NCBI GenBank assembly: GCA_030595665.1
Contig: JAUVCV010000001.1
Span: forward strand, 1 to 64,000
Direction of reading: 5' to 3'
Length of the DNA stretch: 64,000 nt
Source: Methanogenium sp.
GTDB taxonomy: Archaea > Halobacteriota > Methanomicrobia > Methanomicrobiales > Methanomicrobiaceae
Shown: in pieces, positions 48,488 through 58,967 of the stretch
How the letters are laid out: each line of letters opens with the position of its first letter
How positions within the stretch are numbered: the first letter of the stretch is position 1
Program-made: the position numbers and the translations under genes
The notes under the pieces: model-generated
Told to the model about the DNA's origin: nothing
The model's database searches: none
Seen by the model: the letters and a program-made list of their open reading frames with translations, nothing else

Positions 48488-50008
48488 ATGAAGAAGACAA
48501 TCGGAAAAATCGTCGGGGTTCTGGTATTCTTTGTCATCCTTCTCTGGCCCATGGACCCCGCCTTTTTCCCGGTGCAGGCGACCGCTGCATCCACACTCCT
48601 TATGGTTATATGGTGGATCACAGAGGCAATCCCCATTCAGGCGACTGCTTTTTTGCCCATTGTGCTCTTTCCCGCCCTGGGTGTGCTGACAGCCACTGAG
48701 GCAACAGCCCCGTATGCTGACAAGGTCATCTTCCTTTTTATGGGGGGTTTTATCATTGCGATGTCCATGCAGCGTTGGGGACTGCATGAACGAATTGCAC
48801 TCGCGATTCTTAATAAGGCGGGTTCAGATTCACGCAAGCTTATTTTTGGGTTTATGGTTGCAACTGCATTTCTCTCGATGTGGATATCCAATACGGCGAC
48901 TGCGATGATGATGGTTCCCATCGCAATTGCCATCATCGCCACGATTCTTCCACGAAATGACCTGAAACTTGAGGAGATGGACAAATCACAGCGTGACTTT
49001 GCGGAATGCATTGTGATCTCCATTGCCTATGCGGCCAGTATTGGTGGTCTTGCAACGATCATCGGTACTCCGCCAAACGGCATATTCCTCGCACAGATGG
49101 AGACGATATTTCCCCTGGCGCCTACCATTGATTTCTTCACCTGGATGAAGTTTGGACTGCCGCTGGCTATTGTTTTCCTCCCGATTGCATGGGTATGGCT
49201 CACCTATGGACCGTACCGGAATATGCCGAAGAAAATATCCCACGGGCATGATATTATCCGGCAGCGTATTTCAGAACTGGGCCCGATGAGCAAAGGTGAG
49301 CGGTGGACCCTGATGGTCTTCGTACTGACTGCAGTTGCCTGGATTATGCGTTCTGAGAAGGATATTGGCGGCCTTATAATTCCCGGTATCAATACCTATA
49401 TGCCGTGGGTGCATGACTCCACGATTGCAATCGCGGGGGCTCTTCTGCTCTTCCTGCTGCCGGTTGACCGGAAACAGGGCATTTATACGATGAACTGGGA
49501 ATGGGCAAAGAAGATCCCATGGGGTATTTTGATTCTCTTTGGTGGGGGTATTGCCCTCTCTAAGGCGTTCATTGCCTCCGGCCTTGCGCAGGAAATCATC
49601 GAGGTCTTCACGGTCTTCCATGGTCTCCCGGTTGTGGTGGCAGTGGTTGCTGTGGCTGTTATTGTCTCCTTTTTAACCGAGGTGACGTCAAATACAGCGA
49701 TGGCATCGGTGATGATCCCGATCATGGCGGTCACCTCCCTTTCGATGGGTATTCATCCGTGGATTCTGATGCTCACCGCAACTTTTGCTACATCAATGGC
49801 ATTCATGTTGCCGGTTGCGACCCCGCCGAATGCGGTGGCCTATGGTTCTGGCTACATCACCATGCATGATATGATGCGTACCGGATGGGTGCTCAACTTC
49901 GTTGGTATCGGTATTCTGACTGTGATGATGTTCACCATCATCACCTGGGCCCTTGGTCTTGGTTCTGGGATTCCGACATGGGCACTGGAACCAGTGCTCG
50001 GGCCCTGA
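48488..50008 (+). CDS. DASS/SLC13-family anion:sodium symporter
   Basis: The 506-residue membrane protein has about 12 segments and the two SNT-type motifs: MWISNTATAMMMVP and LTEVTSNTAMASVMIP, plus IGTPPNGIFLAQ and MLPVATPPNAVAYGSGYI. This family carries dicarboxylates, phosphate or sulfate with sodium; the substrate is not readable. It stands alone between AT-rich regions. Confidence 0.94.
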   Translation: MKKTIGKIVGVLVFFVILLWPMDPAFFPVQATAASTLLMVIWWITEAIPIQATAFLPIVLFPALGVLTATEATAPYADKVIFLFMGGFIIAMSMQRWGLHERIALAILNKAGSDSRKLIFGFMVATAFLSMWISNTATAMMMVPIAIAIIATILPRNDLKLEEMDKSQRDFAECIVISIAYAASIGGLATIIGTPPNGIFLAQMETIFPLAPTIDFFTWMKFGLPLAIVFLPIAWVWLTYGPYRNMPKKISHGHDIIRQRISELGPMSKGERWTLMVFVLTAVAWIMRSEKDIGGLIIPGINTYMPWVHDSTIAIAGALLLFLLPVDRKQGIYTMNWEWAKKIPWGILILFGGGIALSKAFIASGLAQEIIEVFTVFHGLPVVVAVVAVAVIVSFLTEVTSNTAMASVMIPIMAVTSLSMGIHPWILMLTATFATSMAFMLPVATPPNAVAYGSGYITMHDMMRTGWVLNFVGIGILTVMMFTIITWALGLGSGIPTWALEPVLGP

Positions 50009-50887: not shown

Positions 50888-53800
50888 GTGTTTTCCCGTA
50901 TCTACCGTTTTGGTATTCTGTTTATTTTGCTCCTTGGGCTTCTCATCCTCCCTGTCATGGCCACAGATGTGGTCACGGTGGCATGCTATGCCTCCGGGGA
51001 TAGTGAACCGAAATCTGAAGAATCGTTTACCATTGCGTGGATGGAGGAAAATCTACCCGTAATGGGGGATGGCATTATCCATTATTACCTGCAGGGGCCG
51101 GTTTTTGATGAATCTGTGGACTCATGGAACCCGGATGAGGACATCAATTGTTACCCGGGTAAGGATATGGGTGCTCTCCGGGGCACGGATGTCGCTGACC
51201 TCTGTGACCAGATAGGGGGTGCCCACAAAGGTGATGTAATTGTCATTCGTGCCGATGACGGGTTCCGGAAGTCATTTCCGTATGTGAATGTTTACGCCCC
51301 TCCGCCCCGGCAGGGCAGAATGGTTCTTGCCTGGGAAAAGGATGGCCAGAAGGCAGGTACGGGATACGGTACCGGAATGCGGCTCCAGTTCTTTGCAGAT
51401 ACCTCGGTGAATCCATGGGGCGAGCATATCTTCGGAATCACTGATATGCGGTCTTCTCTCCCGGAGGAATACTGGCATTTCTTCCAACCGGGGTTGCCTG
51501 CCAGCACCGGACTGTCTGTACAGTCTGTCTCACGCATCGAAATTTATGAATCAACCGGGGGACAACCCCCGGTGATCCCATCCGGTGGGAGTGATGGAGG
51601 AGCAGATGTCTGGGCGCCTGCACTTGGCACATTGACTGTTCTCTCCGCCCCGGAGAATGCCGCCGTGGTTATAGATGGTGATGTGAGTGAATATCTGACC
51701 AACATCTCCATTCCGGAGATGCCGGAGGGATATTATGGCGTCACCGTGCAGCGGGATGGATATGAAAATCCTGATGAGGAATGGGTATGGGTTGCAGACG
51801 GTTCCAATGCCACAGTCACCTTTGCACTTGCCGGTATCCCCGCCCCCTGTATGGTGATTTCCCACCCGGCGGGTGCTACTGTCGCAGTGGACGGGACAAA
51901 CAGCGGGATTGTATCAGAAACGGACCCTTTGATGCTCATCACCGGAGATCACAAGATTACTCTCACCATGGATGGGTATGCGCCGCTTGAAATTCCGGTG
52001 TACATTACGAAAGATGGAGAGAACCGTGTGGAAGGTGTGCTCGTACCCCTTTGTAGTGAAGATGATACTCTCTCCCTCTCCGCAGGGCCACATGGTCTCC
52101 TTCCCGGTTCTCTTCTGGTGGCAGCGACACCAGGATATCCCGGCTTTATTGCCGGTGGTGAATCAATCCCGGTGAGTCTGCCTGACGCAAAGGGAGAGGA
52201 GATCACGTCATATCTTCTCTTCTCACATGGGTATGACACGGCATCAGGCCTCCCCGCTGAACCACAGCCTGCGATCTCATCAGGGGATGTACTCCTGATT
52301 CCCCGGCATTTCGCAAATGCCCTTGTCCCTGCAGGTACGGTTGATCAGACCTGTGCTCTTTTCCCGTCCGCATCAAAGGCAATCACACTCAGTGGTGCGG
52401 GAGGGGAGGAGGATGTCTTCTCTCTCTCTGCTGCCGTATCCCTTTGTGCCCTGCCCGGTCCGGGTGCATTTTCATATGCAGTGTATGAAGGATGTGTCCC
52501 GGCAGAAGGGGATATTCTGACTGTTCCCGCAGATCCGCTGTCGGAAAACGGAACCCAAACCCTTGCCCTGCTCTGTACCGGGGCAGGAATGGGCAAAGAC
52601 GCACCGGTTATCCTGGTGAATGGAATGCCGCTGAAAGCAAAACATTCTGTTCCCGTGCCGGGTTTGCTGAGCATCACTGTACCTCTCCCCCCTGGTGGTG
52701 CATATACGGTCACCGCAGCGGATGCGCCTCCCGGATGTATGGTCCGGGTTGTGGTTGCGACTGTGGCAAATCTGCCGGGTGCCATCCCGGATGAAGTCAA
52801 AACAGAAGGGGCTGCAGAAACAACAAATGCAACAGATCTCTCCGGTGACACCAGGAACGGTATTTTTGCTGGCATCTCCTGGTTCTTTTCCTCTCTCTTC
52901 TCTTCCCCTGCAGTGGGGGCGTCCACTGGTGGAGATGACTCCTCCCTCCCTGTGGCAGAAAGCCTGCCGGATGCGACATCGGCACCGGTCTCTGCTATTT
53001 CTACCCCGGAGATGACGCCCACGTATGCAGCACCTGCAGGGCCCACGGAAGACGGTAACACCCATTCTCTGACAGGGGGGATATTGGTGGAGTCTGTGCC
53101 ATCGGGTGCGTGGATCAGTCTGGACGGCAAATCTACCGGGAAAAATACCCCTGCACTTTTCGTGGGTCTCAAAGAGGGTACACATCGAATTAGTGTCTCA
53201 TCAGCGCTCTCCGATGAATCACGATCCAATACAGCATGGGTCTATCCGGGGGCACTAATACCTGCCTCCTTTGACTTCTCCGGCAGTCTCCCGGAGGCGT
53301 CCATACAGGTGGAAAGCACAACAGACGAACAGGTGGTGTTTATGGAGAACGGAAACCTGCCGGAGCAGACAACGCCTGCAGTGGTGACTATCACAGATAC
53401 TGATTCATTTGTTGCGGTCATCTCAGAAAGTGGATACCAGACGTATCCCTTGGACTACCAGCGTGATGGCGGGAGGCTCTCGATTGCTCCGACCATATCC
53501 GGGTCCTGCATGATCTCTGTTACATCCGACCCGGTGGGTGCTGAAATCTTTATCGATGGCGAAAGAACGGGTGAGATAACTCCATCTGAGATATCCGATC
53601 TCTCCACAGGTTGTCACCTGATTGCCTGTTCCCTGCCGGGATATAATCCGGATGCACAGATACTGTCGGTGAATAATCTTCCCGGAGATCTGGATGCAGA
53701 GGCGGAATTTATTCTCACCCCGTATTCAAATGGCGACCTCTGTGTGACATCAAAACCTGAGGGTGCAAAAATTTACCTCTATGATCGCTACACCGGTCTG

Positions 53801-53941
53801 GTAACACCTGCAACGATTCACGATCTTCCGATAGGCACCTATGAAATTGGCCTCTCATCGGGAGATGGAACCATCGTCAGAGAGGCAACTGTCCTTCCGG
53901 ACAGTGTTGTGACCTATGAATTCCGGTTAACAAAGGAATAA
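50888..53941 (+). CDS. Large exported PEGA-repeat surface protein with sulfite-oxidase-like N-domain
   Basis: The 1017-residue protein has a signal peptide (FILLLGLLILPVMATD). Residues about 30-230 match the ectodomain of the next gene: EENLPVMGDGIIHYYLQGP, then GTDVADLCDQIGG and DGFRKSFPYVNV, spaced as in sulfite-oxidase-type molybdopterin folds. Two PEGA-type repeats follow (about 245-390), a middle domain of unknown type, a Ser/Thr/Pro-rich linker near 690-720, then further PEGA repeats up to the C-terminus (GAEIFIDGERTGEITPSEI; GAKIYLYDRYTGLVTP). There is no C-terminal membrane anchor. The start is a GTG. It heads a four-gene operon. Confidence 0.82.
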   Translation: MFSRIYRFGILFILLLGLLILPVMATDVVTVACYASGDSEPKSEESFTIAWMEENLPVMGDGIIHYYLQGPVFDESVDSWNPDEDINCYPGKDMGALRGTDVADLCDQIGGAHKGDVIVIRADDGFRKSFPYVNVYAPPPRQGRMVLAWEKDGQKAGTGYGTGMRLQFFADTSVNPWGEHIFGITDMRSSLPEEYWHFFQPGLPASTGLSVQSVSRIEIYESTGGQPPVIPSGGSDGGADVWAPALGTLTVLSAPENAAVVIDGDVSEYLTNISIPEMPEGYYGVTVQRDGYENPDEEWVWVADGSNATVTFALAGIPAPCMVISHPAGATVAVDGTNSGIVSETDPLMLITGDHKITLTMDGYAPLEIPVYITKDGENRVEGVLVPLCSEDDTLSLSAGPHGLLPGSLLVAATPGYPGFIAGGESIPVSLPDAKGEEITSYLLFSHGYDTASGLPAEPQPAISSGDVLLIPRHFANALVPAGTVDQTCALFPSASKAITLSGAGGEEDVFSLSAAVSLCALPGPGAFSYAVYEGCVPAEGDILTVPADPLSENGTQTLALLCTGAGMGKDAPVILVNGMPLKAKHSVPVPGLLSITVPLPPGGAYTVTAADAPPGCMVRVVVATVANLPGAIPDEVKTEGAAETTNATDLSGDTRNGIFAGISWFFSSLFSSPAVGASTGGDDSSLPVAESLPDATSAPVSAISTPEMTPTYAAPAGPTEDGNTHSLTGGILVESVPSGAWISLDGKSTGKNTPALFVGLKEGTHRISVSSALSDESRSNTAWVYPGALIPASFDFSGSLPEASIQVESTTDEQVVFMENGNLPEQTTPAVVTITDTDSFVAVISESGYQTYPLDYQRDGGRLSIAPTISGSCMISVTSDPVGAEIFIDGERTGEITPSEISDLSTGCHLIACSLPGYNPDAQILSVNNLPGDLDAEAEFILTPYSNGDLCVTSKPEGAKIYLYDRYTGLVTPATIHDLPIGTYEIGLSSGDGTIVREATVLPDSVVTYEFRLTKE

Positions 53942-53944
53942 AAA

Positions 53945-54859
53945 ATGCAAAAAAGTATGAAAATGAGTATGATTTCAATGAATTCAGGATATACAAGCCC
54001 GTTAGGGCGTACTACTATCTGCCGCATAACCGTGGCAGTGATTGTGGCAGCACTCCTCCTCTGTGCAGGGGCTGCCGCAGGACCGACGACAAACATCACT
54101 GTGACCAAGATTGCGGCAGGCACGGGTGACATCATTGCTGAGAAGACGGTGGATTATCTCTGGATGCAGGAGAATCTGCCGGTACAGGGCGATGGTGTCA
54201 CTCACTACTATCATCAGGGTCCGGTCTTCTCCGACGACAAGGAAGAGGCCTGGGATCGCAATGAGACGAAAAACTACAAGGACCATGGCGCAGTGATGGG
54301 AACGGATATCGCTGACCTCTGCAGTCTGGTTGGCGGTGCTGAACCAGGAGATGAGATCATGGTGAGGTCTGGTGATGGCTATCATGTGGAGTTCCCGTAT
54401 GAAAACGTCTGTACCCCTGATCCCCGGCAAGGGCCGATGGTTGTCACCTGGTACAATGGTGAGGATGCAGTGTCTGGAGAACGGGCCGGAGTTGGGTATA
54501 CGCCGGAGGATTACTACAGCGGTATGCGCCTTGTATTCTTCGCAGATGGCTCCACCAATGCCGAGGGTAAGCATGTCTATGGAAACTGGGATATGCACGA
54601 GACAATGCCTGGGATGGTCCATCACTTCTTTGATCTGATGCCATCGACGAATGGCTACACAGCAAAATGGGTGAGCGAAGTCCGTATCTATGAGGATGGC
54701 TTTACCGGCGATACCTCAGCGCCGGTCAAGTCCCTGCAGTCTGAGTCTGCGGAGAGCACGACTAGTGCTGTGCCAGATGCCACTCCAACACCTGCTCCAC
54801 TTGTGCTTATCGCCGCAGGATTTGCCCTTGCACTTGTTCCGCTGCGCCGGAGGATCTGA
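53945..54859 (+). CDS. Exported surface protein with sulfite-oxidase-like domain and C-terminal anchor
   Basis: The 304-residue protein has an N-terminal hydrophobic export signal (about 25-45), an ectodomain similar to the N-domain of the preceding gene (QENLPVQGDGVTHYYHQGP; GTDIADLCSLVGG; DGYHVEFPYENVCTP; SGMRLVFFADGS) and a short Ser/Thr linker before a C-terminal membrane helix ending LRRRI, a typical archaeal sorting tail. It begins 3 bases after the previous stop with AAAGGA 9 bases upstream, and its stop overlaps the next start (TGATG). Confidence 0.85.
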   Translation: MQKSMKMSMISMNSGYTSPLGRTTICRITVAVIVAALLLCAGAAAGPTTNITVTKIAAGTGDIIAEKTVDYLWMQENLPVQGDGVTHYYHQGPVFSDDKEEAWDRNETKNYKDHGAVMGTDIADLCSLVGGAEPGDEIMVRSGDGYHVEFPYENVCTPDPRQGPMVVTWYNGEDAVSGERAGVGYTPEDYYSGMRLVFFADGSTNAEGKHVYGNWDMHETMPGMVHHFFDLMPSTNGYTAKWVSEVRIYEDGFTGDTSAPVKSLQSESAESTTSAVPDATPTPAPLVLIAAGFALALVPLRRRI

Positions 54860-55431
54860 TGAAGTGGTCGATTCCGGTTCTCTGTCTCTGCCTTCTGGCA
54901 GGTGCCTGTATCTGTGGGTGCACCGGGAATGCTGACCCGGTGCAAGCCACTTCGGCAATCCCGGAGCCCCTGCCGGGCAATCTGACCATAATAAATGGTG
55001 ATACTGAGATTGTACTCAACTGGGACGCCATCACTGCACTGCCTGCCTTTGAAGGATATGGTTACGCCGTATCTACTGTGGGCATCAAATACGGTCCTTA
55101 TGAAGTGAAAGGGGTTGCACTCACTGACCTCATTGCTCTTGCAGGAGATTTTGGGACAGAGAACAATACCTGGATCTCGGCACCGGATGGCTATCTCTGG
55201 GTCTTTGATTATGAGCAAGTACAGGGGGAGGGTTTCATCACCTTTGATGATGGCCTGAAAGAAGTACCATCACCACCACTGACTGTTATCATTATGTACG
55301 AACAGGACGGTCTGCCACTCTCCTATATAGATGGAGGTCCCTTCCGGATGGCTATTGCGACCGATACTCCCGGTGTGATTACGGAAGGCAGTTCATGGGT
55401 GAAGTGGGTTGATAAAATTGAAATCAAGTAG
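54859..55431 (+). CDS. Lipoprotein with molybdopterin-binding (sulfite oxidase-type) fold
   Basis: The 190-residue protein has a lipoprotein signal (CLLAGACICGC) and a domain resembling oxidoreductase molybdopterin-binding proteins: YEVKGVALTDLIALAG, SAPDGYLWVFDYEQV, IIMYEQDGLPLSYIDGGPFRMAI and a final SWVKWVDKIEI. The mature domain has no Cys that could hold molybdenum, so a catalytic cofactor is doubtful. It is coupled by overlapping codons to both neighbours. Confidence 0.85.
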   Translation: MKWSIPVLCLCLLAGACICGCTGNADPVQATSAIPEPLPGNLTIINGDTEIVLNWDAITALPAFEGYGYAVSTVGIKYGPYEVKGVALTDLIALAGDFGTENNTWISAPDGYLWVFDYEQVQGEGFITFDDGLKEVPSPPLTVIIMYEQDGLPLSYIDGGPFRMAIATDTPGVITEGSSWVKWVDKIEIK

Positions 55432-56446
55432 GTCAGGAACACCTCCTCTTCTTTTTTTGCTTCTTTGTATTGGAGTGGTCACCCTGACAGTCGCGGCCGG
55501 ATGCAGTGACACTCTGGAGAAGACGGTCGTTAATGTGGTCCCTGCGGGCAGTCTCTTAGGGCCGATGGAGACAATGGAGGCTGAATATGAAGCCCTGCAC
55601 CCGGAGATTGACATCCGGAGTGAGGGGCACGGCAGTATCCAGTGCATCCGGCAGGTGACAGACCTGCATCGTGACTTTGATGTTGTTATTGTTGCAGATG
55701 AGTCGCTGATTCCAGATATGATGTACATCCCCCGCGAGGACGGCAACGGGACCTATGCGGTGTCGTACACGCCTCTGGCCCGTAATGAGATGGTCATTAC
55801 CTATACCAATCTCAGTCAGTATGCTGATGAGATGACAGAAGATAACTGGGTGGAAATTCTCTCCCGCCCGGACGTCAGAACCGGGATTTCAAACCCAATG
55901 CTTGATGCAGCCGGATACCGTGGTCTGATGGTGCTTCTTCTGGCGGAGAATCACTACAACACGTTCGGTCTTTTTGACACAGTGATTTCCCAAAATCTTG
56001 CACATAAGCCGGTCGTGGTGCGCAACGGCACCACAGCAGAGGTTGTCCTCCCGGAAACGATGAAGACGTCAGGGCCGGGTCTTGTCATCCGGGACGGTAG
56101 TGTGTATCTGCTCTCCCTTCTTGAAGCAGGTGGCATTGATTATGCCTTTGAATACCGGAGTGTGGCAGAAGAACATGGGTTGCGGTATATCTCCCTCCCG
56201 GCAGAAATTGATCTCAGTACACCGGAATATTCTGGCCAGTATGATGATGTCAGTGTGACCTTAGGTTACCAGCGGTTCACTTCAATTGGGAGTGAGCGGA
56301 CAGGGCGGCCCATTGTATACGGAATAACCGTGCCAACGACAGCCATCCATCCGGAAGAGGGAGAGGAATTTGCAGAGTTTGTTCTTCAGTCGATGGAAGC
56401 GGGATATGATGCCTGGCCACGGCCGTATTCTGAAACAGAATATTAA
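55409..56446 (+). CDS. wtpA: Tungstate/molybdate-binding lipoprotein, WtpA/ModA type
   Basis: The 345-residue protein has a lipoprotein signal (LTVAAGCS) and the extracellular oxyanion-binding fold: VPAGSLLGPMETMEAEYEA, the VIVADESLIPDM loop, ISNPMLDAAGYRGLM and IVYGITVPTTAIHPEEG. It should deliver tungstate or molybdate to an ABC transporter, but no permease or ATPase gene follows. The start is a TTG inside the end of the previous gene (23-base overlap). Confidence 0.86.
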   Translation: MIKLKSSRSGTPPLLFLLLCIGVVTLTVAAGCSDTLEKTVVNVVPAGSLLGPMETMEAEYEALHPEIDIRSEGHGSIQCIRQVTDLHRDFDVVIVADESLIPDMMYIPREDGNGTYAVSYTPLARNEMVITYTNLSQYADEMTEDNWVEILSRPDVRTGISNPMLDAAGYRGLMVLLLAENHYNTFGLFDTVISQNLAHKPVVVRNGTTAEVVLPETMKTSGPGLVIRDGSVYLLSLLEAGGIDYAFEYRSVAEEHGLRYISLPAEIDLSTPEYSGQYDDVSVTLGYQRFTSIGSERTGRPIVYGITVPTTAIHPEEGEEFAEFVLQSMEAGYDAWPRPYSETEY

Positions 56447-57281: not shown

Positions 57282-58967
57282 TTACCACCGCCGGCGCCGG
57301 ATGATGTATCCAATAAAAAGCAGCGTGATTACCCCTGCGGCAATTTCCTGCCTGAGATGGGTATCCTCACCTGGTGCTGACGGGTCATCCGGAAGTGGCC
57401 CGGCATCCTCCCAGTCTGCGGTGAATACTTCACTGAAGTAGGTTCCTGTGTCCGGGTTTTCTATGATGATACCTGCCTCGCGGTTGAAGGAAGGGGAGTT
57501 TTCGTTCCAGTTGACAGATGAGATGAGCACTGCATCGCCGTCCACGATGACTCCTTTGTTGTGCACTTTCTCCGGGTATCCGGGCCCGAGGCGGGCAAGC
57601 CGTGCCTCCATCGGAAGTCCCTCTGCTGCTGCAACGGCATTTATTCGTGCTGCCATCTCATCATTGTCGTTCTCCCCTTCAATATTGAACCAGTAACTGT
57701 CGAGAATGATACGCACGGTAACCCCCCGGCGGGCAGCGTTGACCGCCGCTTCCAGGTACGGGTTGGGGGTGTTCTTTGTCCAGTTGCTAATGTAGGCCTG
57801 CTGGATGTCAACCGTGTTCTCTGCACCTTCGATGAGTGCCGGAATGAGGTATGCGGTATCCGGGGCAAGGACCGGAGTCACGGTGGCACCGTCAAAGGAC
57901 TGTGTGCCGAATGCCGGTTTGTATGGATCTCCTGTACTCTCCTCCGGCAGGGCACTGGTGTCAGTAAACGGCACAACATCGCCCCCCGCCATGTCAGCCG
58001 TGAAGACCTCTGCGAAGTAGTCTGCTACCCTCGGGTCGGTGATAAGGACACCCCATCCCCTGTTTCCTGCCGTCCCTTTGTCCGGGAATCCGCTCTCTTT
58101 GAAGTTCTCTGATGTCACAAGGACTGCCTCGCGGTCAGCGATGAGATATTTGGCGTGGTCATAGCGGTAACGGGCATGGGCTTTGTCCGTTGTCTCCATC
58201 GTGTATATTGTGGCACCTTTGTCCCGGAGATATGCGGCCGTTCCTTTCTCTTCGGTGCTGATCCCTCCAACCGGCCCGCCTTCTAAGAGAATGGTGACAC
58301 TGACACCATCATCCAGTGCGGCGGCAATGTCTGTGGCAATTCCCGGATCTGCGAACTCATATACATTGATGAGCAGTTCTGAGTCTGCGAGGAGAATGGT
58401 GTTCTCAAGCATCTCCCGCGATGCATCCGGTGCTGCAAATGCTGTCCCGGAGACACCGGAGAAGGATACGGGGGAAAACTGTGACTGGCCGATCATCAGG
58501 GGGCGGGGATCCCATACGCCATCTTCCCGGAAGTGTACCTGCCCCTCGCGGCAGACAACATCTCCCGGCCAGGTGATACGATCGGTCTCCTGCCCGCCTT
58601 CCCGTAATATGATCCCATCACCTTTGTTTCCCAGTTTTAAGGTCCCGGTGCGGATCAGGTCCGGCACATTGGGGGCAGAGTCATACCATTCATAGTCCGG
58701 GTATGCCCCGTGTACCGTGCGGTAGGCTTCTGCCTGCTGTGCCACGACAATTCTTCCGGCTGCCTGGTCGCCATCCGGAAACCGGGCACTGCCCTCCCCG
58801 TCTGATATTGAGACATCAGTGAGGCTTCCTGTTCCCGTGATGACGATGTATTCGTCGGCCTCTCCTTTGTACCAGGTGTCCGGGCAGACTTCTGTTATCG
58901 TGAATGCCGCTGTCACCGTGCCGCAGCAGAGGAGGCAGAGTACGAGGAAGAGGGGGAGGATGTGCAT
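57282..58967 (-). CDS. Secreted, membrane-anchored phospholipase D-like protein
   Basis: The 561-residue protein has a signal peptide (LFLVLCLLCCGTVTAAF), a lamin-tail-like domain (about 25-130) and two PLD halves with HAKYLIADREAVLVTSENF and VHNKGVIVDGDAVLISSVNW; both H-x-K motifs are present. A C-terminal membrane helix ends IIRRRRW. Outside-facing nuclease or phospholipase activity is likely; the target is unknown. It is divergent from the mfnE-like gene. Confidence 0.86.
   Translation of the reverse strand: MHILPLFLVLCLLCCGTVTAAFTITEVCPDTWYKGEADEYIVITGTGSLTDVSISDGEGSARFPDGDQAAGRIVVAQQAEAYRTVHGAYPDYEWYDSAPNVPDLIRTGTLKLGNKGDGIILREGGQETDRITWPGDVVCREGQVHFREDGVWDPRPLMIGQSQFSPVSFSGVSGTAFAAPDASREMLENTILLADSELLINVYEFADPGIATDIAAALDDGVSVTILLEGGPVGGISTEEKGTAAYLRDKGATIYTMETTDKAHARYRYDHAKYLIADREAVLVTSENFKESGFPDKGTAGNRGWGVLITDPRVADYFAEVFTADMAGGDVVPFTDTSALPEESTGDPYKPAFGTQSFDGATVTPVLAPDTAYLIPALIEGAENTVDIQQAYISNWTKNTPNPYLEAAVNAARRGVTVRIILDSYWFNIEGENDNDEMAARINAVAAAEGLPMEARLARLGPGYPEKVHNKGVIVDGDAVLISSVNWNENSPSFNREAGIIIENPDTGTYFSEVFTADWEDAGPLPDDPSAPGEDTHLRQEIAAGVITLLFIGYIIRRRRW

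Follow-up and report, generated by a model that had tools for sequence, protein, structure and literature searches.

A conserved cassette of cysteine-less sulfite-oxidase-fold surface proteins and a WtpA paralogue in Methanomicrobiales, with a probable link to tungstate/molybdate uptake

Known uptake systems for tungsten (W) and molybdenum (Mo) are described as consisting of a binding protein, a permease and an ATPase. In WtpA, the binding protein of one such system in P. furiosus, a change of Asp160 abolished tungstate selectivity (PMC10221389). The sulfite-oxidase fold is known in a different role from PruR, a cysteine-less, pterin-binding protein engaged in ligand-dependent signalling without a metal (PMC13259868). 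Here we describe a four-gene cassette in which proteins related to both occur side by side, located at 50888-56446 on the plus strand of a 64,000-nt window (the whole stretch of DNA analysed), itself part of contig C22 of a Methanogenium-like genome (G000, order Methanomicrobiales). The genes, referred to as P1 to P4, encode three exported proteins with a sulfite-oxidase-type fold and a WtpA-type binding protein (WtpA2), and probably represent an accessory module, on the cell surface, for tungstate/molybdate uptake of the Wtp type, a reading to which we assign a probability of about 0.62. No description of this arrangement was found in the portion of the literature that our search covered, which included a comparative-genomics paper on Mo.

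Gene order and its conservation

Open reading frame (ORF) calling placed the four genes contiguously on one strand, separated by a 3-base gap and then by 1-base and 23-base overlaps, in agreement with a preliminary description made from the sequence. P1 (50888-53941) encodes a 1017-residue exported protein with a signal segment, an N-terminal cysteine-less sulfite-oxidase-fold domain (hereafter the SUR domain) and PEGA repeats (148 bits, five stretches). P2 (53945-54859; 304 residues) is likewise exported and consists of a signal segment, a SUR domain and a C-terminal hydrophobic anchor, with one ortholog per cassette. P3 (54859-55431; 190 residues) and P4, or WtpA2 (55409-56446; 345 residues), are lipoproteins as judged by their lipoboxes, the lipobox cysteine of P3 (Cys21) being kept in 43 of 44 relatives. 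Scanning for promoters by a simple method returned sites that were no more frequent than in shuffled sequences.

The preliminary description had made conservation of the gene order in relatives a test of its proposal, and this order proved to be widely kept. Across 49 P3-bearing loci, nearly all of them labelled as Methanomicrobiales genera or families, P2, P3 and WtpA2 were contiguous on one strand in 48; the exception (locus L085) had WtpA2 on a different contig, beside a giant SUR-domain protein. In a sample of 150 Methanomicrobiales genomes, P3 was present in 55, essentially as a single copy, and was followed by WtpA2 in the same gene run in 54 of these. Two more families of the phylum also had the three genes grouped together. 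Such conservation between families puts the arrangement far outside what chance would produce. Gene fusions were seen as well: P2 and P3 formed one ORF in locus L077, and a SUR domain was joined to P3 in L171.

Fold of the exported proteins and the cofactor site

All three exported proteins had been suspected of carrying versions of one fold related to sulfite oxidase, and both sequence and structure comparisons support this. The SUR domain of P1 (residues 26-221; 50963-51550; 274.8 bits against the A4 profile) was 44% identical to the P2 ectodomain over 207 residues (BLASTP, E = 2e-53). The match between P2 and P3 was weaker in a direct BLAST comparison (E = 0.003) and spanned the motif named in the preliminary description, while comparison of the P2-family and P3-family profiles gave a probability of 96.5% (E = 9e-10), and models of the two proteins cross-matched one another repeatedly in whole-genome scans. 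P3 exceeded the cut-off of the sulfite oxidase family model PF00174 (24.4 bits, cut-off 24), and its family profile detected plant sulfite oxidase (1ogp, E = 6.7e-7) and SoxCD (E = 1.8e-5).

AlphaFold2 models were obtained for the P2 ectodomain (54077-54730) and the mature domain of P3 (54922-55428), with predicted local distance difference test (pLDDT) values of 94.3 and 93.1, respectively. In Foldseek searches, the best solved matches of P2 were PruR structures (7rkb, E = 2.3e-4, together with 7kom and 7kou), and P3 matched PruR 7kom (E = 5.6e-7), followed by sulfite dehydrogenase (3.6e-6) and sulfite oxidases. The superposition for P2 was loose (root mean square deviation 5.5-6.6, target-normalised template modelling score of approximately 0.6), so that details differ, but the fold class of the predicted structure is nevertheless clear. 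The models thus place P2 and P3 in one sulfite-oxidase-type fold class, to which the P1 domain can also be assigned by sequence, because of its 44% identity to the modelled P2. Neither of the outcomes named in the preliminary description as refuting it, folds unrelated to sulfite oxidase or a gene order lost in relatives, was observed. A sequence search of the PDB with the P2 profile returned no match, structural matches being obtained by the fold search alone, and none of 92 members of the P2 domain family matched PF00174 at E = 0.1. The P2 domain therefore defines a surface domain family that Pfam does not model and whose members come mostly from Methanomicrobiales.

The site of the Mo-ligand cysteine was occupied by Ser-Thr in each of the 44 P3 sequences aligned, bearing out the earlier remark that no classical Mo-binding cysteine is seen in this lipoprotein. 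The alignment of 92 P2-family members contained no cysteine column at this site; the one frequent cysteine (79/92) belongs to an ADLC motif away from it. Binding of the molybdenum cofactor by the usual chemistry is consequently unlikely in P2 and P3, as judged from their sequences. Arg163 and Lys182 of P3, which belong to the C-terminal motif of sulfite oxidases, were invariant; in chicken sulfite oxidase, the residues at the corresponding positions contact the pterin phosphate.

The SUR domain is not confined to the cassette, reaching many copies per genome in proteins of 1000-2800 residues that also contain PEGA, NosD/beta-helix, PKD and Ig-like parts. This distribution hints at a wider role in surface display. 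In the window's own genome, giant surface proteins of 1200-1800 residues at G000:C11:48726-57548 (L065) and on G000:C51 (L066) combine SUR domains with NosD/beta-helix, PKD, Big_2 and CARDB domains, and one of them has an additional part resembling purple acid phosphatase.

WtpA2 and the transporter genes

The identification of the fourth gene product as a WtpA-type binder was confirmed by the WtpA model TIGR03730 (315.6 bits, cut-off 242.75); the score against the narrower model NF003196 was 288.7 bits, below its cut-off of 355. Solved relatives include MA_0280 (PDB match with E = 2e-63), MJ1186 and AF_0094. The equivalent of P. furiosus Asp160 was present in every WtpA2 copy aligned. In a WtpA tree (two rows of which were artefact fragments), a well-supported branch separated WtpA2 from ordinary WtpA proteins, with P4 falling on the WtpA2 side on a long branch, its exact place being unsure. 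Two lipoproteins of 653 residues encoded just upstream of the cassette in other loci (L097:5929-7887 and L103:6015-7973) carry TupA-like and WtpA-like binding domains in one chain.

The preliminary description had also called P4 a binder without a transporter. Locally this holds, since no ATP-binding cassette (ABC) genes adjoin P1-P4 in the window; the search for wtpB and wtpC that it proposed located a complete wtpABC on the same contig, at a distance of approximately 60 kb (from G000:C22:115360 onward), whose wtpBC (C22:115360-117113) is the sole close one in this genome. In relatives the picture differs. The genes wtpB and wtpC directly followed WtpA2 in 14 of the 49 loci, encoding WtpB proteins 53-61% identical to that of the window's genome; they were convergent next door to the cassette in L113 and L115, and within approximately 10 kb of it in L109, L111, L114 and L116. 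Outside the order, wtpBC was directly downstream in L166 and L172. An orphan binder was therefore rejected as the final answer, wtpBC lying beside the cassette in relatives.

Fourteen of the 55 P3-bearing genomes had no other strong WtpA, and permeases were checked in eight of these. In three (G031, G033 and G109), wtpBC followed on the same strand, immediately or at a short distance, and in G072 it was convergent, as it was, judging by position, in G092. In the remaining three (G030, G045 and G098) WtpA2 was the only WtpA and wtpBC stood elsewhere without an adjacent wtpA, in G098 at a distance of approximately 10 kb, next to a gene for a giant SUR-domain protein. Most simply interpreted, WtpA2 supplies the wtpA-less WtpBC in these three genomes. 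In G045, the neighbours of wtpBC and tupABC-like genes include one for a membrane protein that resembles, by eye, a MOT1-type molybdate transporter (L179:9949-11082).

Searching plasmids with P3 extended the association to bacteria, although the sample was small, collected by similarity, and serves as supporting evidence only. In a molybdate operon (L124) on Deinococcus psychrotolerans plasmid NZ_CP034185, which comprises genes for an HTH-PBP regulator, ModA, a TOBE protein, a cysteine-free sulfite-oxidase-fold protein and a permease, the fourth of these products has 181 residues, scores 45.8 bits against PF00174 and is encoded between modA/TOBE and the permease gene. Relatives on other plasmids adjoined NifQ, or ModD together with two Mop-like genes and a MoeB-like gene, and another adjoined a TonB receptor with moaA and nar genes. 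Some of the plasmid relatives have a cysteine near the Mo site, and so may not all be cofactor-free.

Several other genes accompany the cassette. A DASS-type sodium:anion symporter, which could carry an oxyanion, is encoded upstream of it in the mapped Methanogenium genomes (window positions 48488-50008), and a gene kept beside it within the genus (window positions 57282-58967) encodes an exported, C-terminally anchored protein that has two PLD-like nuclease/phospholipase domains. Amid the SUR genes of another cassette lies a gene for a calcineurin-like phosphatase of 436 residues (L061:10040-11347), and an ORF of similar size at the same place in L062 (7654-9015) is probably the same gene.

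Proposed role, alternatives and known systems

The link to uptake is drawn from the context of the genes, whose arrangement suggests the following route. WtpA2, as a lipid-anchored Wtp-type binding protein, would capture the oxyanion and pass it to the WtpBC permease/ATPase, whose genes many relatives have in one run with WtpA2; the partner in Methanogenium would presumably be the single wtpBC approximately 60 kb away, acting in trans. The P3 lipoprotein, the membrane-anchored P2 and P1 on its PEGA stalk would present their sulfite-oxidase-fold domains, free of cofactor, on the outer side of the membrane. We infer that the most likely ligand of these domains is a W or Mo species, or a small molecule associated with one, which they would hand across the cell-wall zone to WtpA2.

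Several observations weigh against this proposal. In most loci of the family, and in the window's genus itself, wtpBC does not adjoin the cassette. PruR, the closest solved fold, binds pterins, not metal oxyanions (PMC13259868). SUR domains are shared with giant surface proteins whose other domains are of beta-helix, Ig-like and phosphatase type. Mo genes were found in four of seven annotated bacterial neighbourhoods and in none of the other three, the cases being few. Finally, the equivalent of Glu218 is Ser in WtpA2; the ordinary WtpA of the same genomes also has Ser at this position, and both have Glu at an EYRSV motif. The Glu218 position is the one that we take from alignment with AF_0094, with partly presumed numbering.

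Two alternatives, to which we give equal and low credence, concern what the surface proteins do. The cassette could be a PruR-like surface sensor of tungstate/molybdate or pterins, in which the ligand changes the state of a partner and WtpA2 is a repurposed sensor component, an idea favoured by the best PDB folds being those of PruR, known for metal-free ligand-dependent signalling (PMC13259868), and by the lack of an adjoining permease in Methanogenium. However, no DcpA/DTB-type regulator, other DcpA-like gene or kinase was recognised in the mapped cassette neighbourhoods (no search dedicated to these was made), and the wtpBC genes directly downstream in many relatives and the wtpA-less wtpBC of three genomes favour uptake. 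The proteins might instead be structural or adhesive, the domain being a building block of the cell wall and the wtp link a historical one. This would suit a domain present in many copies per genome and in very large multidomain proteins, yet P3 is essentially single-copy and lies next to WtpA2 in 54 of 55 genomes, and linkage across families and with wtpBC is left unexplained by coincidence. Slightly less probable than either is a variant in which the ligand of the sulfite-oxidase-fold proteins is a metal-pterin or other organic W/Mo complex released by neighbours and WtpA2-WtpBC imports the freed metal; if true, it would constitute a pterin-based W/Mo scavenging route at the archaeal cell surface.

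Least credible by far is an extracellular molybdo- or tungsto-enzyme, in which the three proteins would be sulfite-oxidase-like redox enzymes supplied with metal by WtpA2. The fold, the PF00174 match and the invariant Arg and Lys of the C-terminal motif in P3 agree with it, but the ligand cysteine is missing from all 44 P3 sequences, the P2 family has no cysteine column at the Mo site, the cofactor would need export to the cell surface, and a domain scan of P1-P4 showed no electron-transfer domain. Because the Mo cysteine is lacking, a redox-enzyme role is unlikely and this reading was rejected. Thus, of the two options raised in the preliminary description, an outside tungstate/molybdate system retains a strong link through conserved gene context, whereas a redox system is improbable.

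A surface accessory module of Wtp-type uptake would extend W/Mo acquisition by a conserved outer layer built from a molybdoenzyme fold without its cofactor, and would provide an initial clue to the function of the giant surface proteins of methanogens. The formylmethanofuran dehydrogenase of methanogens depends on W or Mo, and the uptake prediction is therefore directly testable.

Set against known systems, P2 and P3 are closest to PruR, which provides their best solved fold and which they resemble as short exported sulfite-oxidase-fold proteins without the Mo cysteine; they differ in their linkage to a tungstate-binding protein and, in P3, in having Ser-Thr at the cysteine site. The sulfite oxidase family (Oxidored_molyb, PF00174) shares with them the fold and the C-terminal R...VKW motif, but the P1-P3 domains have neither the Mo-ligand cysteine nor a dimerisation domain, and P2-type domains fall below detection by the Pfam model. 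The Deinococcus operon, like the cassette, places a short exported cysteine-free sulfite-oxidase-fold protein among molybdate transporter genes, albeit with ModA instead of WtpA, and with a single small protein in place of surface stalk proteins. In its binding component the cassette resembles WtpABC: P4 passes the WtpA model, aligns with the three solved proteins and keeps the selectivity Asp, and many relatives have wtpB and wtpC directly downstream of WtpA2. The cassette departs from that system in the separation of permease and ATPase genes in the window's genus, in the Ser at the Glu218 position of WtpA2, and in the three sulfite-oxidase-fold surface proteins that precede WtpA.

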